Assembly (NCBI RefSeq): GCF_041821065.1
Contig: NZ_JBGUAX010000007.1
Location: forward strand, 248,001 to 312,000
DNA: 64,000 bases
Origin: Egicoccus sp. AB-alg2
GTDB lineage: Bacteria > Actinomycetota > Nitriliruptoria > Nitriliruptorales > Nitriliruptoraceae
Direction: 5' to 3'
How positions within the stretch are numbered: position 1 is the stretch's first letter; each line of letters begins with the position of its first letter. This document shows, piece after piece, positions 16,991 through 55,770 of the stretch. The position numbers were made by a program, and so were the translations under genes. The notes under the pieces were generated by a model. It did not search any database, had not been told where the DNA came from, and was given only the letters and a program-made list of their open reading frames with translations.

Positions 16991-17950
16991 GTGACCTACT
17001 CGATCGTCGCCCGCGATCCCCGCACCGGGCAGATGGGCGTCGCGACCCAGACGCAGGCCCTCGCCGTCGGCGCCAGCGTGCCCTGGGCGCTGCCCGGCTA
17101 CGGCGTCATCGCGACCCAGTCGATGGGTGAGCCGATGTACGGCGAGCTCGGCCTGGACATGCTGCGGGGCGGGTTGACCGCGCCGGAGGTGCTGGCCGCC
17201 CTGCGCAGCGTCGACCCGCACCCGGAGCGGCGGCAGGTCGCGATGGTCGACGCGGCGGGTGGCATCGACGTGTACACCGGGGACGACTGCGTGGCGGCCG
17301 CCGGCCACCGGCTGGGCGACAACTGCGTGGCGCTGGCGAACATGGTCACCGGGCCGGCCGTCTGGGAACGGATGGTCGAGGCGTACGAGTCGACCACCGG
17401 GCCCCTGTCGCGGCGGCTGCTGAAGGCGCTGCACGCGGCGGAGGACGCCGGTGGGGACTTCCGCGGCCGCCGGTCGGCGGCGGTGCTCGTCGTGCGGGCC
17501 GAGCGGACGGGCCGCCCGTGGCGCGACCAGGTCGTCAACCTACGTGTCGACGACCACCCTGAGTCGCTGCTGGAGCTCGAGCGGCTGCTGGATCAGAGCA
17601 GTCGCTACCACCGCGTGGTCGCGGCGTTCGAGCTGGCGCTCAACGGCCACGCCGAGGCGGCCGTCGTCGACCTCGACCGGATGCGCGAGGAGGACCCGAC
17701 CGAGGAACCCGACCTGCTCATGTGGCGGGCGATCGTGCTGGGGCTGGCCGGCCGCGAGGACGACGCGCGCGCGATCTTCCGCGAGCTCGAGGAGTGCGCC
17801 CCGCCCTTCGTCGAGGCGGCCCGCCGCTTCGGACCCGCCGGTCTGGTGCCCGACCGCGACCTGCTGGCGCGGCTGCTGCCGGACGGCACACCGGTCGCCG
17901 TGCCCCCCGGGGACGAGACGGCGGCCGAGGACTACAGCAGCCGGACGTAG
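16991..17950 (+). CDS. DUF1028 family protein with C-terminal tetratricopeptide-like region
   Basis: A 319-residue protein. The first about 200 residues are the DUF1028 (Ntn-hydrolase-like) domain, seen as TYSIVARDPRTGQMGVA at the start, VGASVPWALPGYGVIATQS and GDNCVALANMV. Residues about 205-290 look like two helical TPR-type repeats (ALNGHAEAAVVDLDRM). The catalytic role of DUF1028 proteins is not established. The start is the GTG at 16991, eight bases after GGAGGC. The stop overlaps the convergent QEGLA gene by 19 bases. Confidence 0.82.
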   Translation: MTYSIVARDPRTGQMGVATQTQALAVGASVPWALPGYGVIATQSMGEPMYGELGLDMLRGGLTAPEVLAALRSVDPHPERRQVAMVDAAGGIDVYTGDDCVAAAGHRLGDNCVALANMVTGPAVWERMVEAYESTTGPLSRRLLKALHAAEDAGGDFRGRRSAAVLVVRAERTGRPWRDQVVNLRVDDHPESLLELERLLDQSSRYHRVVAAFELALNGHAEAAVVDLDRMREEDPTEEPDLLMWRAIVLGLAGREDDARAIFRELEECAPPFVEAARRFGPAGLVPDRDLLARLLPDGTPVAVPPGDETAAEDYSSRT

Positions 17951-19341
17951 TCGTCCTCGATTCGGTCGAGGTCGAGTTGGTTCAGGAAGCCGGAGTAGGC
18001 CAGCCAGGACGCCAGCCCCGACAGATCGGCGAAGTGTGGCGGCAGGTAGCGTGGCGGGTCGAGCAGCCCCTCGTCGAACGCCTCGAAGAGCAGGTCGATG
18101 CGCTCGAGTGCGGTCTTGCCGGTGAACAGCAGTCCGATGCGGAACACCCGCCCACGCGCGACCGCGACCCGGAAGAAGTTGTAGGTCTGGACGAACCCGC
18201 GCGCGTAGGCGAGGTCCTTGGGAAACGGTCCGGCCTCCGGCAGCGACCCCCGGAACACTCGCGTCGTGTCGGCGTACGCCGCCGGCGGCTCGTGCCCCCG
18301 CTCGGTCAGGAACCAGCGGTAGACGTCCAGGAACGTCGCCCCGTCCTCGACCTTGTGGATCGCCTCGACCCGGTCGTTGATGCGCCGCAGCCGCGTCGGG
18401 TGCGAGGTGAACGCCGTCACCTCGACGAGCACGGCCAGTCCCTCCTGGCTGATCGTGGTCGACGGTGGTCCCTTGTCGAGGAACGTGAGGGTCGACTGGC
18501 GCCGGCCGTTGAGCGTGGTCGCGACGTGGACGTAGGCCTCGTGCACCTCGAGGATCCGCAGCGCCCGCTCGCTGAACCGTGCGTCGGCGCGCAGCCGGAT
18601 GCGGTCGGAGCCGGCGATGGCCTCGGCGACGATCGCGTCGGACACCTCGACACGGACGCGGTCCTCGTCGAAGACGCGGTCGAGCCGCTCTTGCAGCCAG
18701 GCGGCGCCTTCCGTGGCGTCCATGGTCTTCTCGTCGGCCGGCAGCAATCCCGAGCCCTCGATGCGCTCGAGCCGGGCCGCCAGGTCGACGCCCAGGTCCG
18801 CCGTCGTGGGACCGGCGACGTGGAACGCGTCGCTCGTGCGGCCGTACAGCAGCCCGGCGCTGCGGGAGAAGTCGGGCGTGCCGCGCGCGGTCAGCATCGC
18901 GACCGTCTCACGCCACTCGAGGCAGCGCTGCGCCATAAGCTGCCCGACCGGGTTGAAGCGTCCCAGCCGGTTGCGGATGTCGCCGTGCAGGTCCTCGAGC
19001 GCCCGGGTGAGCGCGGTCGGGTCGTACGGCAACGGGGCGTAGGTCTCCCGGGTGACCTCCGGCTGACGCGTCGCGCCGGCGGCGAAGAAGCCCTCCTCCA
19101 CCGCCTTCGGCCACCGCAGCGGCGAGAGCACGTTGATCGGCCGCTGCAGCTGGCGCAGCCGCTCGGCCAGGTCGCGGACGGTGGCGCGGTAGGCGGGGTC
19201 GACCTCCGGCGGCGGACGCAGGTCCAGGACGCGCGCGACCTCCGGCACGTCGGAGGTGGCGTCCTCGTGCTCGTCCCCGCTGGCCGGGATCGTGTTCACG
19301 TCGGCGGTGGGTACGGTGGTGGGCTCGTCGCTGGCGGACAC
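17932..19341 (-). CDS. QEGLA-motif (DUF1704) protein, flavohemoglobin expression-modulating family
   Basis: A 469-residue protein with the diagnostic TISQEGLAVLVE motif and the downstream EDGATFLDVYRWFLTERG and GFVQTYNFFRVAV segments. Members of this family resemble metallopeptidases of the tyrosine/arginine carboxypeptidase group; the reaction here is not established. I prefer the GTG at 19341, ten bases after GAGG, over the first in-frame start at 19434, because the extra 31 residues are low-complexity. It is convergent with the DUF1028 gene. Confidence 0.8.
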   Translation of the reverse strand: MSASDEPTTVPTADVNTIPASGDEHEDATSDVPEVARVLDLRPPPEVDPAYRATVRDLAERLRQLQRPINVLSPLRWPKAVEEGFFAAGATRQPEVTRETYAPLPYDPTALTRALEDLHGDIRNRLGRFNPVGQLMAQRCLEWRETVAMLTARGTPDFSRSAGLLYGRTSDAFHVAGPTTADLGVDLAARLERIEGSGLLPADEKTMDATEGAAWLQERLDRVFDEDRVRVEVSDAIVAEAIAGSDRIRLRADARFSERALRILEVHEAYVHVATTLNGRRQSTLTFLDKGPPSTTISQEGLAVLVEVTAFTSHPTRLRRINDRVEAIHKVEDGATFLDVYRWFLTERGHEPPAAYADTTRVFRGSLPEAGPFPKDLAYARGFVQTYNFFRVAVARGRVFRIGLLFTGKTALERIDLLFEAFDEGLLDPPRYLPPHFADLSGLASWLAYSGFLNQLDLDRIEDDYVRLL

Positions 19342-19473
19342 GGCAGCGCGACCTCGGCTCGGGCCGCGCAGCACGCGCGGCGGAGACGCCGAAGGTAGGC
19401 CGTCGTGGTTCGCGGCGAGGCCACTTCGGCGCACGACCGTGCCGGCGAATCCCTACCCTGACGGACAGCACCG

Positions 19474-20067
19474 GTGGTGGTGGCCGTGGACACACCGTTT
19501 GCCGCAGGACCCGTCGTCGCGCTGGTCGGTTCGGCCGGTGGCTTGCCGCAGGTGCGCCAGGTGCTGGCCGACCTGCCCGCCGGCCTGGAGGTCGCGGTGC
19601 TGGTGCTGCTGCACCAGCAGCCGGAGCGGGAGAACCAGTTGGCGCAGTTGCTGCAGCGCGGCTGCGCGCTGCCGGTGCAGCCGGCCGGCGACGGCGAGCC
19701 CCTGCACGGTGGGGCGGTGACGGTGGCCCCGCCGGGGCGTCACCTCGTCATCGCCCCGGACGGCTGTCTGGCGATGATCCGCTCCGGACCCTTCCCACCC
19801 AGCCGTCCCTCGGCGGACCTGCTGCTGACCTCGATGGGGCTCGGCCTGGGCGAGCGGGCGGTCGCCGTGATCCTGTCCGGTGACGGCAACGACGGGGCGA
19901 CCGGCGCCGCGGTCGTCCGCCGCTTCGGCGGTCGGGTCGTGACGATCGAGCCTCGCGCCGCCGATCACCCGAGCATGCCCCGGGCGGTCATCGAGCGCGG
20001 CATGGTCGACGAGGTGCTGCCGCTGGCCGTCATCGGCGACTGGATCGCCGGGCGCGCCGCGGCCTGA
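19474..20067 (+). CDS. Stand-alone CheB-type methylesterase domain protein
   Basis: A 197-residue protein made only of the CheB catalytic domain, without a receiver. The nucleophile Ser20 (GSAGG), His47 (LLHQQP) and the Asp of LSGDGNDG complete the usual triad. It would remove methyl esters or deamidate glutamines on a partner. No chemoreceptor gene is in the window. A second CheB with a zinc domain lies at 25535-26530, so this may be the paralogue serving the same signalling island. Three successive GTG codons leave the exact start open by two residues. Confidence 0.82.
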   Translation: MVVAVDTPFAAGPVVALVGSAGGLPQVRQVLADLPAGLEVAVLVLLHQQPERENQLAQLLQRGCALPVQPAGDGEPLHGGAVTVAPPGRHLVIAPDGCLAMIRSGPFPPSRPSADLLLTSMGLGLGERAVAVILSGDGNDGATGAAVVRRFGGRVVTIEPRAADHPSMPRAVIERGMVDEVLPLAVIGDWIAGRAAA

Positions 20068-20086
20068 GCCGCGAACTATGTGTGTG

Positions 20087-20159
20087 TGGACCCGATCGGA
20101 GTCGAACCGACGACTTCTGCCATGCAAGGGCAGCGCTCTGCCAACTGAGCTACGGGCCC
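20087..20159 (-). tRNA. tRNA-Ala (anticodon TGC)
   Basis: The reverse complement folds as a 73-nt cloverleaf. The acceptor GGGCCCG pairs with CGGGTCC and includes the G3:U70 pair that defines alanine tRNAs. The D arm carries AGCTCAGTTGGCAGAGC, the anticodon stem CTGCC/GGCAG encloses the loop CTTGCAT, and the T arm contains GGTTCGACTCC. The discriminator is A73, and the CCA end is not encoded. It lies between the CheB-domain gene and a small Cys-rich protein gene. Confidence 0.96.
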
Positions 20160-20295
20160 GGACCGTCGCGCAGGGTAGCGGCCGGCGCCTGCGCCGAGAC
20201 GTGCGCCGTGCGACCGCACCGCTGGTCGGGTGACTCAGTGAGCGGCTCGCGGGGTAACCGAACGGTTCTTGCGTCATGTGGAACGGAGGGGGCAC

Positions 20296-20646
20296 ATGCC
20301 GGTGACCGTGACCGCGTACTGCCTGATGTGTTCGGCGCCGGTGGAGTCCGCACCCGGTGTCTGTTCCCTGTCCTGCGCGCTCAGCGCGAACAACGAGATC
20401 CGCCGCAACGTCCGGCACTACCGGGAACTGCTCGGGCAGGCCGAGACGCGCAACCGGCGGTATGCCCTGGTGCTGCGCAACGGTGAGCTGAGCGCCGCCA
20501 TCCAGGCGCGGGCGATCCTCGACCGGCGTCCCGGCCGGTTGCCGCACCGCCCGGCCCCGGCGACGGCGTCAGCTTTCGACCGCCAGGTGCGGCGCGACGC
20601 CGGCCAGCTCGATCAGCCGCTGCAGCGGCGGGCTCGGCGCCCGTAG
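20296..20646 (+). CDS. Small protein with N-terminal zinc-ribbon-like cysteines
   Basis: A 116-residue product. The first 25 residues hold CLMC and CSLSC, spaced like a treble-clef zinc site, followed by a basic helical region (NNEIRRNVRHYRELLGQ). The ATG has an excellent ribosome site (GGAGGGGG). The last 78 bases overlap the convergent STAS-domain gene, so the C-terminal 25 residues may be less constrained. A related rRNA-hydrolase or zinc-finger role cannot be assigned. Confidence 0.6.
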   Translation: MPVTVTAYCLMCSAPVESAPGVCSLSCALSANNEIRRNVRHYRELLGQAETRNRRYALVLRNGELSAAIQARAILDRRPGRLPHRPAPATASAFDRQVRRDAGQLDQPLQRRARRP

Positions 20647-20889
20647 GACCAGCCGCCGGTCCAGCGATCCAAGGGTGCCGGCGGCCCGGAGCAGACAGCC
20701 CAAACCGGAGGAGTCGACGAACGTCAGCTCCGACACCTCGAGCCGGACGTCGCCGTCGGTCGCAGCGACCGCGTGCTCGAGGTGGTGCTCGAGCAGCGGA
20801 CTGGTGTGCGCGTCGAGTTCGCCCGACAGCCTGAGCGTCACGTCGCGGCCGTCGCCCGGCGCGGTGCGGACGGCCAGTGGCTCGGCCAT
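20569..20889 (-). CDS. STAS-domain anti-sigma factor antagonist (RsbV/SpoIIAA type)
   Basis: A 106-residue single STAS domain. The phosphorylation loop FVDSSGLGCLL carries the conserved Ser61 and the β-strand/helix pattern is complete. In partner switching the unphosphorylated form binds the anti-sigma kinase and frees the sigma factor; phosphorylation by the kinase inactivates it, and a PP2C phosphatase reactivates it. The genes for the other components are adjacent: an RsbW-like protein (20976), a sigma factor (21401) and a SpoIIE-type phosphatase (22099). Confidence 0.88.
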   Translation of the reverse strand: MAEPLAVRTAPGDGRDVTLRLSGELDAHTSPLLEHHLEHAVAATDGDVRLEVSELTFVDSSGLGCLLRAAGTLGSLDRRLVLRAPSPPLQRLIELAGVAPHLAVES

Positions 20890-20975
20890 GGCGGCTGCCT
20901 CCGACGTGCGTGACACCGGGCACGGTAGCCGGCTATGACGCCCATCACGAGCCCCCCGACCAGGACCACGCCGCC

Positions 20976-21350
20976 GTGCCGCCACTCGACATCCGACTCG
21001 ACGTGCCGGCCGACACGCGTTGCCTGCGCACGCTGCGCCTCGCCATCGCGGGAGCCGCCGAGCTGGCGGGATTCGACGAGGAGGCGGTCGGCGACGTGCG
21101 CATCGCGGTCGACGAGTTGGCCGCGGCCGTGATGTCCGTCGCCGACGGTGGCGCCCGGTTGATCGCGGACGTCGAGGTCGGGCGGGGTCGGCTCCGGGTC
21201 GTCGGCAGGCTGACCCGCCCGCCGGGGTCCACGCCGCAGCTGAGCCCCATCGCGCAGGACGTTCTGCCCCGGACCACCGACCACCATTGGCTGGGTGCAC
21301 GGGGGACCTTCGGGCTCGAACGCGTGACGGCGACGCCCACGACGCCCTAA
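20976..21350 (+). CDS. RsbW-like anti-sigma regulatory protein (GHKL ATPase fold, diverged)
   Basis: A 124-residue protein. The segment DVRIAVDELAAAVMS matches the N-box helix of anti-sigma serine kinases (V-x-E-L-x-x-N), but the usual Asn is replaced by Ala and the glycine-rich ATP-lid is weak (LGARGTFGLERV). It may therefore bind sigma or STAS without strong kinase activity. The start is taken as GTG 20976; the frame is open upstream to 20877. It lies 50 bases before the sigma gene and is divergent from the STAS gene. Confidence 0.7.
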   Translation: MPPLDIRLDVPADTRCLRTLRLAIAGAAELAGFDEEAVGDVRIAVDELAAAVMSVADGGARLIADVEVGRGRLRVVGRLTRPPGSTPQLSPIAQDVLPRTTDHHWLGARGTFGLERVTATPTTP

Positions 21351-21400
21351 CCTCGTCGAGGTCGGCCGACCAAGGCCTGGGGCCCGGCCGACGGGGGAGC

Positions 21401-22102
21401 ATGGACGAGCCGACGACCATCGACACCCGGTTCGAACGGTACGCGCGGACCGGGGACCGTGCGTTGCGCGACGAACTCGTCGTCGACCACCTGCCCTTCG
21501 CCACGGCGCTCGCCCGCCGGTACCGGCACCACCGCGAGCCGCTGGAGGACCTGCAGCAGGTCGCCGCGCTCGGCCTCGTCAAGGCGCTTGAGCGCTTCGA
21601 CCCGGCGCGCGGCGTGCCGTTCGAGGCCTTCGCGGCGCCCACCATCCTCGGCGAGTTGCGGCGGCACTTCCGCGACGGTTGCTGGAGCGTGAGCGTGCCC
21701 CGCCCGATCCGGGACCGCAGCCGGGCCGTCCTCGACGCGCGTGACGCGCTGCTGCAGGAACTCGGGCGCAGCCCACGGCTGTCCGAGGTCGCGACCCGCG
21801 CCGGCTGCACGGTCGACGACGTGGTGGCCGTGCTGGACGCCACCGCCGCCAGCCGCCCGCAGCCGCTGTGGACCGAGCCGTTGGCCGACGACCCGTTCGA
21901 CGACCCGACGCGGGTCGAGGCCCGGGACCTGCTCGGCCATCTCGTCCGGGACCTGCCGGAACGCACGCGCCGGTTGCTGTACCTCAGCTACGTCCGCGGG
22001 ATCCCGCAGCGCCAGATCGCGCACGAGGTCGGACTCAGCCAGAAACACGTGTCACGTCTGCTCGCGCGCGCGTTGGAGCAGCTGCGGCGCCGCGCGGCCT
22101 AG
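21401..22102 (+). CDS. SigB/SigF/SigG-family RNA polymerase sigma factor
   Basis: A 233-residue sigma-70 family protein. Region 2 is seen in LVVDHLPFATALARRYRHH...LEDLQQVAALGLVKALERFDP and VPFEAFAAPTILGELRRHFRD, the FAxPTIxGExxRxFRD block of the SigB/SigF group. Region 3 (RSPRLSEVATRAG) follows, and region 4 (RQIAHEVGLSQKHVSRLLARAL) is the helix-turn-helix that reads the -35 element. It is preceded by GGGGGAG at the ATG. Its stop overlaps the convergent phosphatase gene by four bases. It probably controls a general stress regulon under the adjacent partner-switch proteins. Confidence 0.93.
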   Translation: MDEPTTIDTRFERYARTGDRALRDELVVDHLPFATALARRYRHHREPLEDLQQVAALGLVKALERFDPARGVPFEAFAAPTILGELRRHFRDGCWSVSVPRPIRDRSRAVLDARDALLQELGRSPRLSEVATRAGCTVDDVVAVLDATAASRPQPLWTEPLADDPFDDPTRVEARDLLGHLVRDLPERTRRLLYLSYVRGIPQRQIAHEVGLSQKHVSRLLARALEQLRRRAA

Positions 22103-23547
22103 TCGCTGGGCAGCACCGCGGACAGTACGGCGCGGACCGCCGTGCCGGTGGCCCCGGACGCGACGACGAACGGGTCCGCGAGCTGCTGCACGACGTGCAG
22201 GCCGCGGCCGCGCGTCGCTTCCGAACCCACCGGCGGAACGTGTGCGTCCGGGGGCTGGATGCCGGGGCCGTCGTCGCGGACTTCGACGACGACGTCGCGG
22301 CCCAGCCGTCGCAGGGTGAGCCAGATCGTCTCGCCACCGTGCTCGACGGCGTTGGTGGCCAGCTCGGACACCACCAGCAGCACGTCGCCGGCGCGGTCGT
22401 CGGCGACGTGAAGGGCCCGCAGCCAGTCACGAACGACGTGCCGCGCCCGGCCGACCTCGCTGGCCTGACGCGCCAGCGTCAACTCCAGGCCAGCGGCCGG
22501 CGAACGGGTGGCGGCTGGATCCTCCAGGTAGCGCAGACAGAGAGCGAGCGCGTCGTCGGCGCGTTCGCCGTCGGGGACGAGACGGAGCGCGGCGGTGGCC
22601 AGGTCCGCGGCCGCCGGCACGTCCGCGAGCCGACGGATCAGTTCCTCGGTGTCCAGCACGGCGCCGGGGGTGGCGAGCACACCGTCCGTGACCAGCAACA
22701 GGCGGTGGCCCGACATCGGCAACGGCGTCACCCCCGTCTCGGCCGTGAGTCCGAACCCCAGCGGCGGTCCGGCGGTACCGACCGGCAACAGCGGCCCCGC
22801 CAGCGGACCGTGGAAGGCGGATGGATGTCCGGCCAGGACCAGTTCCGCCTTCCGGCGCTCGGCGTCGACACGCACCAAGGCGGCGGTCCCCGTCACCGCG
22901 CCGCCCTGCTGGCGCAGGCGTTCGTCGGCGCGAGGTGGCAGTGACGGCAGCGGACACCCGTCGAGCGCCAGGAGGCGAAGCGTGTAGAGCAGTTCCGCCG
23001 CTGCCTGCGCCGCGGGCGCGCCGTGACCGGTGGCGTCGATGACCGCGACGTGGACGCTGCCGTCGTCGAGCGGCTGCACGTCGTAGCGGTCACCGCCGGG
23101 CCCGTCCTGCAGCGGTGCGTCGGCGACGTCGACCGCGAGTCCCGGCACGTGGTCGTGGGGCGGGTGGTGCTGGGCGTGGAGCTCGCGCAGGCGCTCGCGG
23201 TGCTCGCGCAACTCGACCACGGCAGGGAGCAGTGGGAACGTTGCCGCCTCGTCGTGGAAGCGGGCGGCGACGTGCACCAGCGGCTCGTCGTCGTCGCCGA
23301 GGCGGGTCAGCAGCAACTGCGCCGGATGGCTCCACTGATTCGTGTCGCGCAGCACCACCTCGCAGGACGTGTGCGCGTGGAAGGCCTCGGAGAGCGCCCG
23401 CCGGAACGCCGGACGGTCGGGCACCGCGACGTGGACCGCCAGCGGCTTGCCGACCAGCCACCTCGGATGTCGCCCCAGCCGCGCGGCGAGTGCCGGGTTG
23501 GCCCAGCGCAGCGTGCCGTAACGGTCGGTGATCGCCTGCGCGATCAC
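22099..23547 (-). CDS. PAS - SpoIIE-type PP2C phosphatase - HATPase (anti-sigma-like) protein
   Basis: A signalling protein of about 482 residues. An N-terminal PAS-like domain (about residues 1-110) precedes a PP2C/SpoIIE phosphatase with [26 protein letters not shown] and DDALALCL metal-binding acids. The C-terminal GHKL ATPase domain has an intact N-box ([13 protein letters not shown]) and [15 protein letters not shown] lids, so it could be a kinase as well as a phosphatase. The start is uncertain: GTG 23547 has a good GAGG, but a CTG overlapping the cheR stop or an upstream GTG would restore the PAS N-terminus. It lies downstream of the CheR-PAS gene. Confidence 0.82.
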
Positions 23548-23585
23548 CGACGCCTCGAGGGCATCGCGCCAGGTGCCCTCGTCGA

Positions 23586-25466
23586 TCAGGTCGTGTCCGG
23601 CCGCCGTCGTTCCTCCATGAGCAGGATCGCACCCTTCACGGCACCGTCGTCGGTGTGCAGCGGCATGCACGAGACGTGACACTCGACCGGCATGCCACGG
23701 CGGTTGCGCGCCGGCAGCACCAAGAGCTTGGTGTCGTCCTCGCCGGCCAGGGACGCACGCAACGGGTCCCGCAGCTCGTGCACGGGCAGGCCGACGTCGA
23801 GGTCGAGGAGGTTGGTGCCGACGACCTCGTCGCTGCGCAGTCCCCACAGGTCCTCGGCGAGGTCGTTCCAGACCCGGACGAGCAACGCCTCGTCGACGAC
23901 GACGACGGCCCGGCGCAGGCTGCGCAGCACCGCTGCCAGGAACGCATTGGCGTCGTTGAGCTGGCGCTGACGCTGGAAGAGCTCCTCGTTGGCGACGTGG
24001 AGCTCGTCGTTGGTCGACTGCAGCTCCTCGTTCATCGTCTCCAGCTCTTCGTTGGTGGACTGCAGTTCCTCGTTGGTGGTCTCCAGTTCCTCGATGGTGG
24101 ACTGCAGTTCCTCGTTGGTGGTCTCCAGCTCCTCGTTGCTGGACTGCAGCTCCTCGTAGGCGGAGGCCAGACGGCTGCGGGACTCGGCGAGCTGGTCGCG
24201 TAGGCGATGACGGTCGCTGATGTCGGCGAAGGTGATGGCGGTGCCGCACACGCCACCGTCGTCGTCGGGCAGCGGCTGCACCAGCACGTCGAGCGTGGTG
24301 ACGACGTCGGGCTCGACCTGCCAGCGGACGTCCTGCAGCTGGACCGGCCCGCCGGACTCGTAGGCGCGTTCGATGGCCGCGCGGAGCTCGACGGGTCGGT
24401 ACGACAACTCCAGGTCGCGCAGCGGACGACCCAGGTCGCGCAGGCTGAGCCGGAACAGCTGACGCGCCGGGGCGTTGGCGAGCAGCAGGTGGCCGTCGCG
24501 GTCGACCGCGACCGTGGGCAACGGCACGACGTCGAAGGCGCGATCGCGCAGCGCGACGTTGGCGACGGCCGGCTCGGCGTCCACGATGACGCGCTGTAGT
24601 AGCCGCTGACGGGCCTCGCCGGTGGGCACCTTCCGGAAGAAGCGGCGCTTGGCGTCGATCGGCTCGAACAGGCGACTCGAGCGCAGCAGCTTCTCCGCCT
24701 TGCCGAGGAACAGCACGCCGCCGGGCTGCAGCGCGAAGTGGAAACGGTCCAGGGCGTGGGCCTGCACGTCGCTGTTGAAGTACATCAGCGTGTTGCGACA
24801 GACCAGCAGGTCGAGCCGGCTGATCGGCGCGTCCTGGATGAGGTCGTGACGGCCGAAGATGATGTTGCGGCGCAGGTCCCCGCGGAACTGCAGGCGTGTG
24901 ACGTCGTCGCGGGCGGGACCTCCGCCGTTCGGTGGTTCGAAGTAGCGCTCGCGCCACGGCTCCGGGACACGTGCGATGTCCTCCGCGTCGTAGCTGGCGG
25001 AGCGGGCGTCCGCCAGGGCCTCCTCGTCGACGTCGGTGCCGTAGATCTTCACGCGCTCGACGAACAGGTCGGCGCCGAGCAGTTCGCACAGCACGATGGC
25101 GATGCTGTAGGTCTCCTCGCCGCTGGCACAGCCGGCGGACCACACCCGGATCGGCTCACCGGGGTCCTTGGCCTGCAGCATCCCGGGCAGGACCTCCTGC
25201 TGCAGGTGCTCCCAGGCGTCGAGGTCGCGGAAGAACGACGTCACGTTGATGAGGATGGTGTTGAAGAACGCGGTGAACTCGTCGGGATGCACCTGCAGGT
25301 GGTCGAGGTAGGCACCGTAGGAGTCCAGCCGGAGCGTCTGCAGCCGCTTGTCGATGCGCCGGTGCAGCGTGCCGCGCTTGTAGCCGCTGAAGTCGAAGTT
25401 GCGGGTCCGCTTGACGTGGTCGAGCAGGGCCGAGAAGGCCGGCTCGTCGTCGGTTCGCTCCGCCAT
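23586..25466 (-). CDS. CheR-type methyltransferase with coiled coil and PAS domains
   Basis: A 626-residue protein. Residues 1-270 are a complete CheR: TSFFRD, the SAM-binding [12 protein letters not shown] (residues 110-121), [24 protein letters not shown]-like regions follow at about 290-415 and 490-620, separated by nine heptads of the [14 protein letters not shown] type (coding bases about 23978-24158), an ideal signalling coiled coil. Homologues usually continue into a histidine kinase; here the next gene is a PAS-SpoIIE phosphatase. It is downstream of the CheB gene (gap 68 bases) on the same strand. Confidence 0.9.
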
Positions 25467-25534
25467 GACCTGTCTCGTGCCGTCTGACGGTCACTGTAGC
25501 GGCGAGGACCCCCGCGTCCGGGGGCGCCGCCGGG

Positions 25535-26530
25535 TCAGCCCGCGGAGCTGGCCGCGCCGCCGGCGGCCAGCAGTGACCGCAGGTGCTCGAGCTGCTGCTC
25601 GATGTCGTCGATCTGTTCGTCGTAGCGGCGCACGGCGCGCCCGAGGTCGCGTTCGGCGGCGCGTTCGCGCAGTCGCTGGGCCAGCTCCGAACGCTCTTCG
25701 AGCAGGCGGACGACCGTCCACAGCGAGCCCTCGATCTGCACGCCCTGCGCGTCCAGCAGGCTCCTGCCACCCCAGGCGTGGCCGACGTGGCAGCGGAAGA
25801 CCGGCACCTCGTCGCGGCCGGCCACGACGCGCAGCGGCCCGCCACAGTCGGGACACACCGCCGGGAGCTGGCCGCCCTCCTGGTCGCGCTGCTGGGTGCC
25901 GTGACGGCTGACCGCGAGCTCCAGCGGGTCCGGGGTGGGCGGGTCGTCGAGCGCGGCCGCGGCGGGGATCCTCGTCAGCGTGGTGATGCGCCGAGCGAGC
26001 TCGGCGATGGTCAGCGACTCGGCGCTCGTGCACGCGTCCGCGACGTTGGCGGGAAGATCCGGGAAGGTGGCCTCCTCGACGTCCTGCACGAGGACGCGTC
26101 CGCCGGCGGCCTCGACCTCGCGGGCGCCGGCGCTGCCGTCGTCCAGGACGCCGGAGAGCGCGACGGCGACCGTGCGCGGGCCGTAGGCGCTGGCGGCGCT
26201 GCGGAACAGGGGATCGATGGCGGGGCGGAAACCGTGTTCGGGCGGGCCCTGCACCAGTCGCACGAACCCGGGCTTGACGAGCAGGTGCAGCCCCGGCGGC
26301 GCGACCCGGATCCGCCCGCACTCGACGGGCTCGGCGTCGGCGACGTGTGCGGCGGGCAGCGGGCCGGCACGGGCCAGCAGGCGTGGCAGCTCGCTGCGCG
26401 CGTTGGCGGGCGTGTGCACGACCACGAACACGGCGGCTTCGAGGTCGGCCGGCAGCTCGCCCACCAGTTGGGTCAGCGCCTCGATCCCCCCGGCGGAGGC
26501 ACCGATGACCACCAGGTCGTGCGTGGACAA
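25535..26530 (-). CDS. CheB-type methylesterase with C-terminal zinc-ribbon and coiled coil
   Basis: A 331-residue protein. The CheB catalytic domain (residues 5-195) has Ser12 (GASAGG), His39 (VVVHTP) and the Asp pair in SGVLDDGSAG. A C-terminal domain contains CPDCGG and FRCHVGHAWG, a four-cysteine/histidine metal site, then a helical tail rich in Glu/Arg. There is no receiver domain, so control is not by phosphorylation. TTG 26530 with GGGAG eight bases upstream is the most credible start; the frame stays open through the repeat arrays upstream. Confidence 0.8.
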   Translation of the reverse strand: MSTHDLVVIGASAGGIEALTQLVGELPADLEAAVFVVVHTPANARSELPRLLARAGPLPAAHVADAEPVECGRIRVAPPGLHLLVKPGFVRLVQGPPEHGFRPAIDPLFRSAASAYGPRTVAVALSGVLDDGSAGAREVEAAGGRVLVQDVEEATFPDLPANVADACTSAESLTIAELARRITTLTRIPAAAALDDPPTPDPLELAVSRHGTQQRDQEGGQLPAVCPDCGGPLRVVAGRDEVPVFRCHVGHAWGGRSLLDAQGVQIEGSLWTVVRLLEERSELAQRLRERAAERDLGRAVRRYDEQIDDIEQQLEHLRSLLAAGGAASSAG

Positions 26531-26620
26531 GGTGCGGCTCCCGGACGCGGATTCCTCCGCACTCTCACCGATCGCCGCGCCCCGGGGACCGTGCGACGAC
26601 GGTCGGACGGCCGTGCCCGC

Positions 26621-26917
26621 GGGGCTGTGGTGGTCGCCTGCGCACGGGTCGCTTCGCTCGCTCTCGGTGCGCGCCGGCTGCTCCGAGCCCGCTCCGGGGC
26701 TGTGGTGGTCGCCTGCGCAGGGGTCGCTTCGCTCGCTCTCGGTGCGCGCCGGGCTGCTCCGAGCCCGCTCCGGGGCTGCGGTGGTCGCCTGCGCAGGGGT
26801 CGCTTCGCTCGGTGCGCGCCGGGCTGCTCCGAGCCCGACCGCTCCGGGGCCGTGGTGGTCGCCTGCGCAGGGGTCGCTTCGCTCGCTCTCGGTGCGCGCC
26901 CTGGGGGCGCTTCCGAG
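26621..26917. repeat. Tandem repeat array A, about 75-bp unit, four copies
   Basis: Copies begin at 26621, 26696, 26772 and 26846, each opening with GGGGCYGYGGTGGTCGCCTG and containing GGGTCGCTTCGCTCG. Copies differ by small deletions and single-base changes; the third lacks an eight-base CTCGCTCT-type segment and gains six bases near its end. The last copy fades after GGTGCGCGCC. The array is outside any gene I accept. The unit contains short inverted segments (GGCGACCACC versus GGTGGTCGCC) but no spacer-like variable sequence. Confidence 0.9.
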
Positions 26918-26994
26918 ATAGCCCCTGCTACGGCGACCACCACACCCCTCCGCTCCGTGAAGGCCGCGGCAACGCGCCTCCCGTCGCGCGATCC

Positions 26995-27285
26995 GGCAAC
27001 CGTCGAGCGAACCGGCAACGGTCGCGCCTTGCTGCCGACCCGGGGCGACCAGCCGCGACCGATGCGCGCAGGCGCGACAGCACCACCTCGTCGCGCCACT
27101 CGACAACCGTCGAGCGAACCGGCAACGGTCGCGCCTTGCTGCCGACCCGGGGCGGGCAGCCGCGACCGATGCGCGCAGGCGCGACAGCAGCACCTCTTCG
27201 CGCCACTCGGCAACCGTCGCGCCCGCCGGCGACCGTCGCGCCTCGCTGCCGCGCCGGGGCGACCAGCCGCGACGGATGCGCGCGG
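26995..27285. repeat. Tandem repeat array B, 107-bp unit, about 2.8 copies
   Basis: Two nearly identical 107-bp copies start at 26995 and 27102, with a shortened, more diverged third at 27209. Each contains CAACCGTCGAGCG, CTTGCTGCCGACCCGG and a GACCGATGCGCGCAGGCGCG block. The unit is unrelated to array A, although the two arrays are only about 80 bases apart. The array ends just before the stop of the AAA ATPase gene. Confidence 0.9.
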
Positions 27286-27293
27286 GGGTCCCC

Positions 27294-28463
27294 TCAGCTC
27301 CGGTCGGGGCGGGTGCGGGTCACCCACTCGGCGAACCCGGGCACGGTGAACGCCAGCCGGCCGCGTGCGGGGGCCCAGCACAGGCCCCGCTCGACCAGGT
27401 CGCGTCGCGCCGGGGAGAGCGCCTGATGGGTGAGGTCGAGCACCTCGGTGAGGTCGCCCATCTCCGCGTCGCCGCCCTGCTCGGCCAGCGCGACGGTCAG
27501 CAGGGCGCCGCGCCCCGAGGGCACCCGCCGCCAGCGGTCGGCGAAGAACGCCTGCACGCGCTCGTGGACCTCGACACCGGCGGCGCGGGCGTCGACGAGA
27601 TCTACCCGCTCGGGGCTCCTGGCGGCGTCCCACAGGGCCGCGCCCCACAGTTGCACGAACCAGGGGTAGCCGCCCGACTCGTCGTGGACGTGGTCCAGGA
27701 CGTGTTCGTCGACCAGGACATCGGCTTCGCGCTCGAAGGGGCGGCGGACGGCCTCCACGGTGCCGTCGCGGTCGAGCAGGCCAAGTTCCAGCCGTTCCAG
27801 CCGTTCCGTGTAGGTCTGGCCCTCGTCGAACAGCGTCTCCGCCGCCGACGGCAGGCCCGACAGCAGCACGCCGACCGGGCGGTCCTCCTGTGAGGCCAGG
27901 TGGGCGGCGCGCAGCAGCGGCTTCAGCAGCGTCTGTTCGGCCTCCTGCACCTCGTCGACCGTCAGCAGCACGCCCTGCTTCAGCGTCGCCGCGAGGATCC
28001 CGAGGTCGGCCACGAGCCGTTCGACGGTCGCGGCCGGGGTCCCGCTGGCGCGAACCTCGACGCTGCCGTCCCGGCCGCGCCGCAGGCTGCCGCAGCGCGC
28101 CAGCGTGGCGTCGTCGGCGCGCTCCACCAGGCCGGCGGCGCCTCGGCGCAGGGTCTCGCGGGCGGCGACGAGGTCCCCGTCACCCCGGTCGGCTTCCAGC
28201 GCGATCGTGTGGACGCCACGCTGTCCGGCCTGCAGTCGCACGTAGGCCAACAGGGCGGTCTTGCCGACGCCGCGCACCCCGCGGTAGAGCAGCAACTGCG
28301 GGGCGGCCGGGCGGGCGAGGCGGTCGACGACCACCTTCGCGCGGCGCAGGGCCGGCTCGCGGCCACCGAAATCGGGCGGCACACGCCCCATGCCGGGACG
28401 GAAGGGGTTCGCGGCGGGATCCAGGGCCCCGTCGGTGAACGGGTCCTCGAACGGGTTGGGCAC
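27294..28463 (-). CDS. AAA ATPase of the ORC/STAND-like type
   Basis: A 389-residue P-loop protein. Walker A is GVRGVGKT, Walker B is LLTVDEVQ (about residues 150-157), and a sensor-like stretch GVLLSGLPS follows. The C-terminal 120 residues look like a winged helix (MGDLTEVLDLTHQALSPARRDLVERGL). Similar ATPases accompany transposons, toxin systems or serve as signalling switches; the exact role here is unknown. The start is GTG 28463, five bases after GGAG; the open frame extends far upstream through non-coding sequence. Confidence 0.78.
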   Translation of the reverse strand: MPNPFEDPFTDGALDPAANPFRPGMGRVPPDFGGREPALRRAKVVVDRLARPAAPQLLLYRGVRGVGKTALLAYVRLQAGQRGVHTIALEADRGDGDLVAARETLRRGAAGLVERADDATLARCGSLRRGRDGSVEVRASGTPAATVERLVADLGILAATLKQGVLLTVDEVQEAEQTLLKPLLRAAHLASQEDRPVGVLLSGLPSAAETLFDEGQTYTERLERLELGLLDRDGTVEAVRRPFEREADVLVDEHVLDHVHDESGGYPWFVQLWGAALWDAARSPERVDLVDARAAGVEVHERVQAFFADRWRRVPSGRGALLTVALAEQGGDAEMGDLTEVLDLTHQALSPARRDLVERGLCWAPARGRLAFTVPGFAEWVTRTRPDRS

Positions 28464-52985: not shown

Positions 52986-54385
52986 CGGCCGACCTCGGCG
53001 GGGGCGGCGCGCCGGCTGCCGACCCGGCGGCCCGCACGGTCGAGCACCCGACCACGCGCCGAGCCGCGCGACTCGTCGCTGATCCGCAGCAGCAGCGCGA
53101 TCAGCACGTAGTTGCCCAGCAGCGACGAGCCGCCGTAGGAGACGAACGGCAGGGTGATGCCCGTCAGCGGCACGACCCGGGTGAGCCCGCCGATGATCAC
53201 GAACGTCTGCAGCGCGATCGTGACCGTCAGGCCCAGCGCCAGCAGGGTGCCGAACTCGTCGCGGGCCGTCAGCGAGATCTTGTAGCCACGCACGACGAGC
53301 AGCAGGAACGCGACCAGCAGCGCGGTGGCGCCCAGCAGCCCGAGCTCCTCGCCGACCACCACGAAGATGGCGTCGGTCGACGAGAACGGCACGTCCTGGG
53401 GGCGCCCGCCGCCCAGCCCGGTGCCGGTGAGCCCGCCGGTGCCCAACGCGAACAGACTCTGGGCGAGCTGATAGCCGGCGTCGGTCACCTGGGACCACGG
53501 GTCCAGCCAGATCGACACCCGGACCCGCACGTGACCGAACAGCTGGTAGGCGATCGTGGACCCGATCGCGAACGCCACCAGCCCGAGCAGCGGGTAGGCG
53601 AGGCGGCCCGTGGCGACGTAGAGGACGGCGAGGAAGGCGCCGAACAGCAGCAGCGCGGAGCCGAGGTCGCGCAGACCCGCCATCACCACCAGCGCCGCGA
53701 ACGTCGCCAGCAGCACGGGCGCGAGGTGCCGCGGCGCCGGGATCAGCAGCGGGCCGAGACGCTGGTTGGCGACCGACAGCAGGGCGCGTTTGCGCTCCAG
53801 GTAGCCGGCCAGGAACACCACCATCGTGATCTTGGCCAGCTCGCCGGGCTGGAAGCGCATCCCGAAGACGTCGATCCACAGCTGCGCGCCGTTGATGACG
53901 CCGGCGGTCAGCCCGGGCACCAGCGGCAGCACCAGCAGCACCAGTGTCACCAGGCCGAAGGTGTACTGGTAGCGCGAGAGCTGCCGCACGGCCGGTACCA
54001 CGACCAGGACCCCGCACATGGCGGCCACGGACACGGCGGTCCAGATCGTCTGCGTCGTGGCGAGGTCGCTGCCCGCGGCGAGGTCGACCCGCCTGACGAA
54101 CACCAGCCCCAGACCGTTGAGCAGGAACGCGAGGGGCAGCAGTGTCGGATCGGCGTCGGGGGCGACCGCCCGCACGACGAGGTGGGCCACGATCGCGATC
54201 ACGGTCAGCGCGACGCCGGTGACGATCGCGCTGGGGGGCAGTTCGGGGCCCTGCGACCAGCCGAGCAGCATGCTGGCGAACACGGTGATGACGACCGCGA
54301 AGGCGAGCAGGCGTGCCTCGGTCGAACGCAGCTTGTTGCCGGAGCGGCGCTCGGCGCCGCGACCGGTCCCGGTCGCCGCGCTCAC
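52982..54385 (-). CDS. rodA: RodA/FtsW-type peptidoglycan glycosyltransferase
   Basis: A 467-residue protein with about ten membrane helices of the SEDS family. Conserved segments are NGAQLWIDVFGMRFQPGELAKI, GSDLATTQTIWT and GLTRVVPLTGITLPFVSYGGSS. It polymerises lipid II and pairs with PbpA. The short C-terminal basic tail (RARGRVLDRAGR type) is cytoplasmic. It is coupled to pstP and pbpA by four-base overlaps. Confidence 0.95.
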   Translation of the reverse strand: MSAATGTGRGAERRSGNKLRSTEARLLAFAVVITVFASMLLGWSQGPELPPSAIVTGVALTVIAIVAHLVVRAVAPDADPTLLPLAFLLNGLGLVFVRRVDLAAGSDLATTQTIWTAVSVAAMCGVLVVVPAVRQLSRYQYTFGLVTLVLLVLPLVPGLTAGVINGAQLWIDVFGMRFQPGELAKITMVVFLAGYLERKRALLSVANQRLGPLLIPAPRHLAPVLLATFAALVVMAGLRDLGSALLLFGAFLAVLYVATGRLAYPLLGLVAFAIGSTIAYQLFGHVRVRVSIWLDPWSQVTDAGYQLAQSLFALGTGGLTGTGLGGGRPQDVPFSSTDAIFVVVGEELGLLGATALLVAFLLLVVRGYKISLTARDEFGTLLALGLTVTIALQTFVIIGGLTRVVPLTGITLPFVSYGGSSLLGNYVLIALLLRISDESRGSARGRVLDRAGRRVGSRRAAPAEVGR

Positions 54386-55770
54386 GGCTGGTCGGCCGTG
54401 TCGTCGGTGTCGGTCGCCGTGTCGGTGGTGGGGTCGCCGGCGGTGTCCTGCGCACCGGCGGGTTCCTCCTCGATGCCGGTGCCGCCGATGCCGTCCTCCG
54501 CGCCGGCGGGCTCGTCGCGGCGTGGCGCACCGGCCACGATGCGGCGGGCGACGCCCCGGTCGGGGGCGTGGATGCCGTCCTCGAGCGCCGGGCGGTACCA
54601 GGCCGGGACGTCGTCGACCGTCAGGTCGGTGCGTTCCACGACCCGCGCGAGGTTCCAGGTGCCGATCGAGAAGTCGACGCCCTGATAGATGACGACCTGC
54701 TCGTCGTCCAGACCCACGAAGTACTGCTGGCTGAGCAGGAACCGTCCGCCGACGAAGACGACGGCAGCCAGCACCGCCAGCCCCAGCAGACCGGCCGCGA
54801 GCCGGCCGACCCAGCCACGCGAGCGGCCCTCGTCGGCCGGCGTGTGACCGCCCGGGCCACCGCGTCCGAGCGAGCCGTAGTTGCCCAGGCGGCCGGCCCA
54901 GTCACCCGATGGTGACTCGTCCCGGGTGCTGATCGCGACGGGAGCGCCGCGGCTGCGACGCTCCCCCGGTGTGGTCTCGCCGCGAGCGGCCGTGCCGGCC
55001 GCGGCCGCGGCGCCGCCGTGTTTGGCAGACGGAGGTTCGTCCGGGCCGTCGGGGTCACAGCGCAGGAGCACGAGCGTGATGTTGTCGGGACCCCCGCGGG
55101 CGTTGGCGGCCTGGATGAGGCGCTGGATGACGTGCTCGGGGTCCTCGCCGCTGCGCAGCTCCTCGGCGATCTCCTCGTCCTCGAGCACCCCGGTCAGCCC
55201 GTCGGAGCACAACAGGACCTGGTCGCCCGGTTCGACGTCGATCGTCATCGAGTCGACCTCGACGTCGCGCGCCACGCCGATGGCCCGGGTGATGATCGAA
55301 CGCTGCGGGTGGGAGGCGGCCTCCCGGCGCGTGATCTGGCCCGCGTCGATGAGGTGCTGGACGAGCGTGTGGTCGTCGGTGAGCTGGCTGAACTTGTCGT
55401 CGCGCAGCAGGTAGGCCCGCGAGTCGCCGACGTGGGCGACGTGCAGACGCCGACCCTCCAACATCGCGGCCGTCAGCGTGGTTCCCATGCCGCGATAGGC
55501 GGGCTCCTCCTCGGCCATGCGCGAGACGATCTCGTTGGCCTCCACGATCGCGCGACGCAGGGCCTCGTCGGCGTCGTCGGCGTCGGCGAACACCTTGCCG
55601 TCGAGGGCCTCGACGGGACCGAGCGCCGTGGCGGACGCGATCTCGCCGGCGAGGTGGCCGCCCATCCCGTCGGCGACGGCGAAGACGCTCTCCGCGACGA
55701 GGAAGGAGTCCTCGTTGCCCTCGCGGACGCGGCCGACGTCGGTGCCGCCGGTGGCGACCATGCGCCTCAT
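54382..55770 (-). CDS. pstP: PP2C-family serine/threonine phosphatase
   Basis: A 462-residue membrane phosphatase. The N-terminal PP2C domain (residues 1-235) shows DVGRVREGNEDSF, VADGMGGHLAGEIAS, HVGDSRAYLLRDDKF, LLCSDGLTG and GGPDNITLVLL, with all metal-binding acids. A membrane helix (about 335-355) and an extracellular tail follow. It dephosphorylates PknB and FHA partners. The start is ATG 55770 (55761 is also possible). Confidence 0.94.
   Translation of the reverse strand: MRRMVATGGTDVGRVREGNEDSFLVAESVFAVADGMGGHLAGEIASATALGPVEALDGKVFADADDADEALRRAIVEANEIVSRMAEEEPAYRGMGTTLTAAMLEGRRLHVAHVGDSRAYLLRDDKFSQLTDDHTLVQHLIDAGQITRREAASHPQRSIITRAIGVARDVEVDSMTIDVEPGDQVLLCSDGLTGVLEDEEIAEELRSGEDPEHVIQRLIQAANARGGPDNITLVLLRCDPDGPDEPPSAKHGGAAAAAGTAARGETTPGERRSRGAPVAISTRDESPSGDWAGRLGNYGSLGRGGPGGHTPADEGRSRGWVGRLAAGLLGLAVLAAVVFVGGRFLLSQQYFVGLDDEQVVIYQGVDFSIGTWNLARVVERTDLTVDDVPAWYRPALEDGIHAPDRGVARRIVAGAPRRDEPAGAEDGIGGTGIEEEPAGAQDTAGDPTTDTATDTDDTADQP

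Follow-up and report, generated by a model that had tools for sequence, protein, structure and literature searches.

The stretch of DNA analysed here, hereafter the window, comprises 64,000 nt of the Egicoccus sp. AB-alg2 genome (NZ_JBGUAX010000007.1, 248,001 to 312,000), and coordinates are given as positions within it. A block at 19474-26530 encodes, in order, CheB1 (+), a tRNA-Ala (-), a small Cys-rich open reading frame (ORF) (+), a STAS protein (-), an RsbW-like protein (+), a sigma factor (+), a PAS-SpoIIE-HATPase protein (-), a CheR-PAS-coil-PAS protein (-), hereafter CheR-PAS, and CheB-Zn (-) (Table 1). Methylation-based adaptation is textbook knowledge for chemoreceptors, as is partner switching for sigma factors. 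The strongest new result of the analysis, drawn from gene neighbourhoods, is that in Actinomycetota, most of them without receptors, CheB/CheR-PAS genes are repeatedly linked to genes for partner switching.

Proteins encoded by the block

Profile searches returned matches for every protein that a sequence-only reading of this DNA had placed in adjacent genes (two CheBs, STAS, RsbW-like protein, SigB/SigF-type sigma factor, PAS-SpoIIE-HATPase and CheR-coil-PAS), those of the RsbW-like protein and the sigma factor lying under the cut-offs. The sigma factor, with a TIGR02980 score of 190 bits (NCBI cut-off 234 bits), is the best SigBFG match of the genome, the next scoring 140 or less. The triad motifs of CheB1 (GSAGG, LLHQ and LSGDGNDG) are intact and it matches 6ymz and 1chd, and the CheR part of CheR-PAS matches the CheR structures 1af7 and 1bc5 with intact SAM motifs. 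The zinc-type tail of CheB-Zn (CxxC/CHxxH) is present in 47 of the 54 long CheBs of the family.

The STAS protein carries the motif FVDSSG, in which the predicted phosphorylation site, previously put at Ser61, is corrected to Ser60 of the protein starting at 20889, presumably the equivalent of SpoIIAA Ser58 by homology. In PAS-SpoIIE-HATPase the SpoIIE metal-site motifs (GGDRYD, DATGHG, AGHP and TDG) are intact, and the HATPase domain has an N-box with its Asn as well as a GRGL box. The best PDB match of this protein is Rv1364c (3ke6, residues 150-480, E 1.5e-10); an AlphaFold model of the whole chain had a mean pLDDT of 42 and was not used. The start of its gene is uncertain: there is no ATG, the reading frame touches or overlaps the stop codon of CheR, and the closest standard start codon is a GTG at 23547.

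The RsbW-like protein (VDELAAAV) keeps the N-box Glu and lacks the N-box Asn, in agreement with the sequence-only reading, which had also noted the Asn in the phosphatase HATPase; it has no DxGxG box either. Its AlphaFold model, calculated with two sequences (mean pLDDT 68), has the order of secondary structure elements expected of a GHKL anti-sigma factor, and its 19 best PDB chains, all with E < 0.001 (3e-7 to 5e-4), are UsfX, SigF-bound UsfX, RsbW and SpoIIAB, UsfX being the best. A spurious reading frame was considered for this gene and rejected, given that G019, a metagenome assembly described below, has a homologue next to the same genes, likewise without the N-box Asn, and that the model matches anti-sigma folds.

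Intact ATP-site motifs thus occur only in the SpoIIE protein, and the RsbW-like protein has an anti-sigma-like fold without them. In Mycobacterium smegmatis, RsbW1, a close UsfX homologue, binds SigF and has no kinase activity, and RsbW2 is a STAS kinase that does not bind SigF (PMC7693655). Because of this analogy, the RsbW-like protein is a probable anti-sigma factor without kinase activity, and the HATPase domain of the SpoIIE protein would be the STAS kinase. The earlier suggestion that kinase and phosphatase are merged in one protein fits the motifs, but the arrangement is not new, being known from Rv1364c. We regard as quite improbable the converse assignment, in which the SpoIIE-HATPase protein is itself the anti-sigma factor and the RsbW-like protein its antagonist. 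It would have precedents in Rv1364c, which binds SigF, and in M. smegmatis RsbW3, an RsbW homologue acting as an antagonist (PMC10950880, PMC7693655), and the RsbW-like gene is kept in G019 with no sigma gene beside it; however, in the window this gene precedes the sigma gene by 50 bp in the same orientation, where an anti-sigma gene is normally located, and UsfX, the best structural match, is an anti-SigF factor.

Table 1. Features of the block, with their positions in the window and the basis of each assignment.
Feature	Position	Strand	Basis and remarks
CheB1, receiver-less CheB methylesterase domain, 197 aa	19474..20067	+	GTG start; Pfam PF01339 1e-42
tRNA-Ala (TGC), inside the block	20086..20159	-	ARAGORN
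Small Cys-rich ORF, 116 aa	20296-20646	+	N-terminal CxxC...CxxxC pattern
STAS anti-anti-sigma protein, 106 aa	20569..20889	-	Pfam STAS_2 5e-19; NCBIfam ant_ant_sig 57.6 bits, over cut-off
RsbW-like protein, probable non-kinase anti-sigma factor, 146 aa	20910..21350	+	HATPase_c_2 Pfam 3e-5 (under Pfam cut-off); NCBIfam RsbW 1e-4
SigB/SigF/SigG-like sigma factor, 233 aa	21401..22102	+	TIGR02980 (SigBFG) 3e-57
PAS-SpoIIE(PP2C)-HATPase protein	22099..23577	-	Pfam SpoIIE 1e-22, HATPase_c_2 8e-21, PAS_4 1e-7
CheR_N-CheR-PAS-coiled coil-PAS (CheR-PAS), 626 aa	23586..25466	-	Pfam CheR 1e-49, CheR_N, two PAS domains
CheR-PAS coil, residues 432-491, repeated EELxSTN heptads, candidate methyl-acceptor helix	23994..24173	-	Conservation across 77 homologues
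CheB-Zn, receiver-less CheB with C-terminal CPDC...CHVGH zinc motif, 331 aa	25535..26530	-	TTG start; Pfam PF01339 2e-47

The genome (4.84 Mb, 98% complete) was searched for receptors and for other components of both kinds. Genome-wide there were zero matches to PF00015 (methyl-accepting chemotaxis protein, MCP) and zero to PF01584 (the CheW coupling domain, also part of CheA), which extends to the whole genome the absence of MCPs previously noted for the window; complete chemotaxis receptors that could be the partners of these Che proteins were not found. No histidine kinase is fused to or beside CheR-PAS, and its SpoIIE-HATPase neighbour has no HisKA domain. HATPase_c_2 had 37 matches in the genome, the best of which (8e-22) was this SpoIIE protein; apart from the degenerate RsbW-like protein, the remaining matches sit in open frames no shorter than 348 aa, a size to be expected for histidine kinases, and for this reason no further stand-alone RsbW was seen among the 37. 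The SpoIIE domain of the block is the best of three matches in the genome, one other being a PP2C-like gene at 54382-55761 of the window. Since the best HATPase_c_2, SigBFG and SpoIIE matches all lie here, it is plausible, judging from sequence, that the partner switch is confined to this locus, even though the genome contains two more STAS matches.

Genomic linkage of CheB/CheR-PAS and partner-switch genes

GTDB genomes carrying CheR-PAS were scanned, yielding 78 loci, and a draw of 396 members of the phylum gave 24 genomes with a CheR-PAS match, from which flanks were taken where the protein was unfused. Linkage was scored where a STAS, RsbW, SpoIIE or sigma gene lay within three genes of CheR-PAS. 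A single-sequence phmmer search for SpoIIE found nothing in the 78 loci, and profiles grown from Pfam-confirmed members were used instead. In Actinomycetota, linkage was present at 18 of 29 loci (27 of 138 near genes versus 5 of 292 far genes, p = 3e-10) and, when one locus per genus was counted and the window left out, at 11 of 21 (17/101 near versus 5/174 far genes, p = 7e-5). Outside this phylum it was present at 0 of 54 loci (Chloroflexota 0/13, Cyanobacteriota 0/34, others 0/7). The cyanobacterial clusters encode the same proteins, with CheR-PAS about 50-55% identical over its full length, but run CheB-Zn, CheB, CheR-PAS and then a histidine kinase at 28 of the 34 loci, the output gene never being that of a partner-switch protein; at the 13 Chloroflexota loci neither a histidine kinase nor a partner-switch gene was found nearby.

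The actinobacterial arrangements vary. CheB-Zn, STAS-HATPase and CheR-PAS adjoin in six genomes of one genus (L136-L140, L142) and STAS-HATPase adjoins CheR in Rhodococcoides; Amorphoplanes has two STAS-HATPase genes and a sigma-STAS fusion, and Dactylosporangium has, within 10 kb, STAS-HATPase twice, STAS, SpoIIE and a STAS-sigma fusion. L147 holds STAS, CheB, CheR-PAS, CheB-Zn and a SigB/F/G-type sigma gene in a row, and L141 holds STAS and an RsbW with an intact N-box. A SigB/F/G-type sigma gene is found at the locus in four lineages (Dactylosporangium L087, Amorphoplanes L092, L147 and the window). Most often these Che genes are paired with a STAS-HATPase fusion, and SpoIIE is present at the locus in three cases only: the window, G019 (L028, in degenerate form) and Dactylosporangium. 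A tree of 77 CheR-PAS proteins, for which four loci with a partner-switch gene four to five genes away were also labelled as linked, shows at least three label changes on well-supported branches, so the association has been gained or lost more than once. Among 16 genomes in which CheR-PAS is unfused, 13 lack both MCP and CheW and 3 have both; CheR/CheB cannot serve chemoreceptors in most carriers. A search of a plasmid collection gave matches in Nonomuraea (no annotated features at the locus) and Azospirillum. ANTAR-domain genes lie beside CheB/CheR-PAS at L078 10821-12407, L100 6227-7225 and 10844-11461, L101 5710-6417 and L145 3707-4699 (fused to STAS).

CheR-PAS and SpoIIE proteins were also searched for in 61 relatives. 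A close CheR-PAS (59%) was found only in G019, a Nitriliruptoraceae metagenome assembly, where the order (L028) is CheB-Zn, CheR-PAS and PAS-SpoIIE-HATPase, followed by an RsbW-like gene in convergent orientation and by STAS. The SpoIIE search returned only the window's own protein and a lone HATPase in the same-genus genome G003, and was uninformative as the family diverges fast. In G003 the block is absent, and the same flanks (an AAA ATPase gene and the ortholog of 16991-17950) enclose only a tRNA-Ala and the lone ATPase (148 aa, L006 8092-8538), which shares 47% identity with the C-terminal domain of the window SpoIIE protein and could be either a remnant or a precursor of the cluster.

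These results bear on the proposal that a receptor-free CheR/CheB methylation module provides the input to a SigB/SigF-type partner switch, which we hold to be somewhat the likelier account. As first worded from the sequence, with the methylation-type input ending on a SpoIIE phosphatase that sets sigma activity, it gains from the recurrent actinobacterial linkage, from the four sigma lineages and from the general lack of receptors, and loses in that the usual partner is STAS-HATPase and SpoIIE is rare; in this form it is partly supported, the physical link between CheR/CheB and the phosphatase being a prediction. Conservation of the gene order among relatives held only in part, and several observations weigh against the proposal. 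Neither the CheR-PAS protein nor the order was found in the three same-genus genomes (0/3), and the exact gene set occurs only in the window. In G019 the SpoIIE domain lacks the GGD and DxxGHG metal-binding motifs, no sigma gene adjoins the cluster, and CheR-PAS contains one in-frame TAA, possibly an assembly error. The block is not one operon: because the tRNA-Ala and the Cys-rich ORF sit inside it, CheB-Zn/CheR/SpoIIE (-), RsbW-like/sigma (+) and STAS (-) form several transcription units, and the sigma and RsbW-like genes are convergent with those of SpoIIE and CheR. The genome has two further STAS matches and two CheR genes, and the second CheR/CheB pair, on contig C1 (L003 7262-14065) with a receiver protein and a 1657-aa protein, makes methylation cross-talk possible. 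About 40% of actinobacterial CheR-PAS loci have no partner-switch gene within three genes, and some carry GAF/PAS-ANTAR antiterminators instead (Streptomyces L078, Cellulomonas L100, Acidimicrobiia L101), a possible third output type. Lastly, neighbourhood is not interaction.

Several of these points would suit two independent neighbours, namely a self-contained partner switch and a CheB/CheR-PAS set acting elsewhere, on the second CheR/CheB cluster or on ordinary histidine kinases. The divergent and convergent transcription units and the tRNA gene within the block, the patchy occurrence within the family and the cyanobacterial association with histidine kinases all agree with such an arrangement. 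It is nonetheless unlikely in our estimation: the genes of CheB-Zn, CheR-PAS and the SpoIIE protein follow one another on the same strand in both the window and G019, and chance would hardly produce the linkage in as many genera as show it. The gene set of the second CheR/CheB cluster (a protein of about 1650 aa, CheR of about 290 aa, CheB of about 195 aa and a receiver protein) is also found in two same-genus genomes (L031, L032).

The Glu-rich coil of CheR-PAS

MCP methylation in E. coli and Salmonella follows the consensus Glx-Glx-x-x-Ala-Ser/Thr, with sites seven residues apart. The coil of CheR-PAS is typically built of 6-7 heptads per protein with a spacing of seven and the pattern EExx[ST][ST] (77 proteins); by the heptad-spaced pattern EExx[AS][ST] of MCP-type methylation substrates the coil qualifies, and on sequence it fits the consensus, with Ser/Thr in place of Ala, as well as the spacing. 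Across the 77 homologues, which come from several phyla, the coil is the most conserved stretch of CheR-PAS (mean entropy 0.37; catalytic domain 1.22, SAM motif 0.52), and each heptad position is conserved at 0.90 or more. A purely structural coil should keep mainly its core positions. Homogenisation of the repeats at the DNA level was considered as a source of this conservation and rejected: identical residues use different codons at 17-47% of positions between genomes, and selection therefore appears to act on the protein.

The EELxSTN coil is the prime candidate for a methyl acceptor. A broader scheme, in which the attached CheR would methylate the coil of CheR-PAS and the linked CheBs would remove the methyl groups, with outputs that differ between histidine kinases (Cyanobacteriota) and STAS/HATPase/sigma partner switches or ANTAR antiterminators (Actinomycetota), is put forward only tentatively and may well prove wrong; if true, it would represent a receptor-free, adaptation-type methylation plugging into different outputs. 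Another alternative would have CheR and CheB non-catalytic, or acting on unrelated proteins, with CheR-PAS as a scaffold bringing PAS sensors to SpoIIE-HATPase and methylation having no regulatory role. PAS-coil linkers have been proposed to serve both PPM phosphatases and histidine kinases as interchangeable input elements (PMC12143880), and the methyl acceptor at this locus is a candidate only; yet the SAM-binding and CheB triad motifs are intact, and CheB genes accompany CheR-PAS at nearly all loci, where a pure scaffold would not need them. We give this alternative little credence.

Proposed pathway and neighbouring features

Returning to the methylation module as the input stage of the partner switch, we infer the interactions, enzyme activities and methyl acceptor as follows. 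CheR-PAS and CheB-Zn, encoded in tandem with PAS-SpoIIE-HATPase, would make up a sensor in the cytosol, with reversible methylation of glutamates adjusting its set point, and the state of the sensor would be passed to the SpoIIE-HATPase protein, probably via PAS and coil contacts. In the latter, the HATPase domain would phosphorylate and the SpoIIE domain dephosphorylate Ser60 of STAS. Unphosphorylated STAS would then capture the predicted kinase-dead RsbW-like anti-sigma factor, freeing the sigma factor.

The individual elements resemble known systems to different degrees. Mycobacterium tuberculosis Rv1364c (PAS-PP2C-RsbW-STAS, a SigF regulator) likewise combines PAS, a SpoIIE-type phosphatase and an RsbW-type ATPase in one chain, but the window STAS is a separate protein, the window gene comes after CheB-Zn and CheR-PAS, and the descriptions of Rv1364c consulted name no CheR/CheB partner. 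The predicted division of roles is that of the Mycobacterium SigF switch (RsbW1/UsfX, RsbW2, RsfB), where a non-kinase RsbW homologue binds sigma and another ATPase phosphorylates STAS (PMC7693655); in M. smegmatis, however, the phosphorylation of STAS depends on a receiver-type PP2C controlled by a histidine kinase (RsfSR) (PMC10950880), a place that CheR/CheB-linked PAS proteins would take here. As in the RsbP/RsbU-type modules of Bacillus subtilis, PAS and a helical linker are predicted to control a PPM phosphatase that dephosphorylates STAS (PMC12143880), whereas at the window locus RsbQ and RsbT partners were not seen and the linked genes are CheR and CheB. F-class chemosensory operons with a stand-alone STAS gene also have CheB, CheR and STAS in one gene order (PMC9239204), but belong to systems with MCP, CheA and CheW.

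Because the pairing recurs in many related bacteria, and here without any chemotaxis receptor, a CheR/CheB-type input to partner switching seems to be a form of gene control not yet described. A description of CheR/CheB linkage to STAS, SpoIIE, an anti-sigma factor or the coil motif was not found in the literature, which is weak evidence of novelty as most subscription papers lay outside the search. A widespread genomic link of this kind in bacteria lacking chemoreceptors would imply direct tuning of transcription by CheR/CheB. It raises the question of the CheR/CheB substrate where MCPs are absent, to which the repeated, unusually conserved Glu-rich coil offers a specific candidate answer.

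Further features lie in and around the block. The Cys-rich ORF had zero Pfam or NCBIfam matches; it converges on the STAS gene, the two overlapping at their 3' ends. Two tandem arrays, at 26614-26900 (a unit of about 75 nt, x3.7) and 26982-27302 (a 107-nt unit, x2.8), lie in the interval from CheB-Zn to the AAA ATPase gene. The neighbour of CheB1 at 17932-19434 (-) encodes a MATCAP/QEGLA-motif family protein (Pfam PF08014 1e-119; TIGR02421, 'flavohemoglobin expression-modulating').

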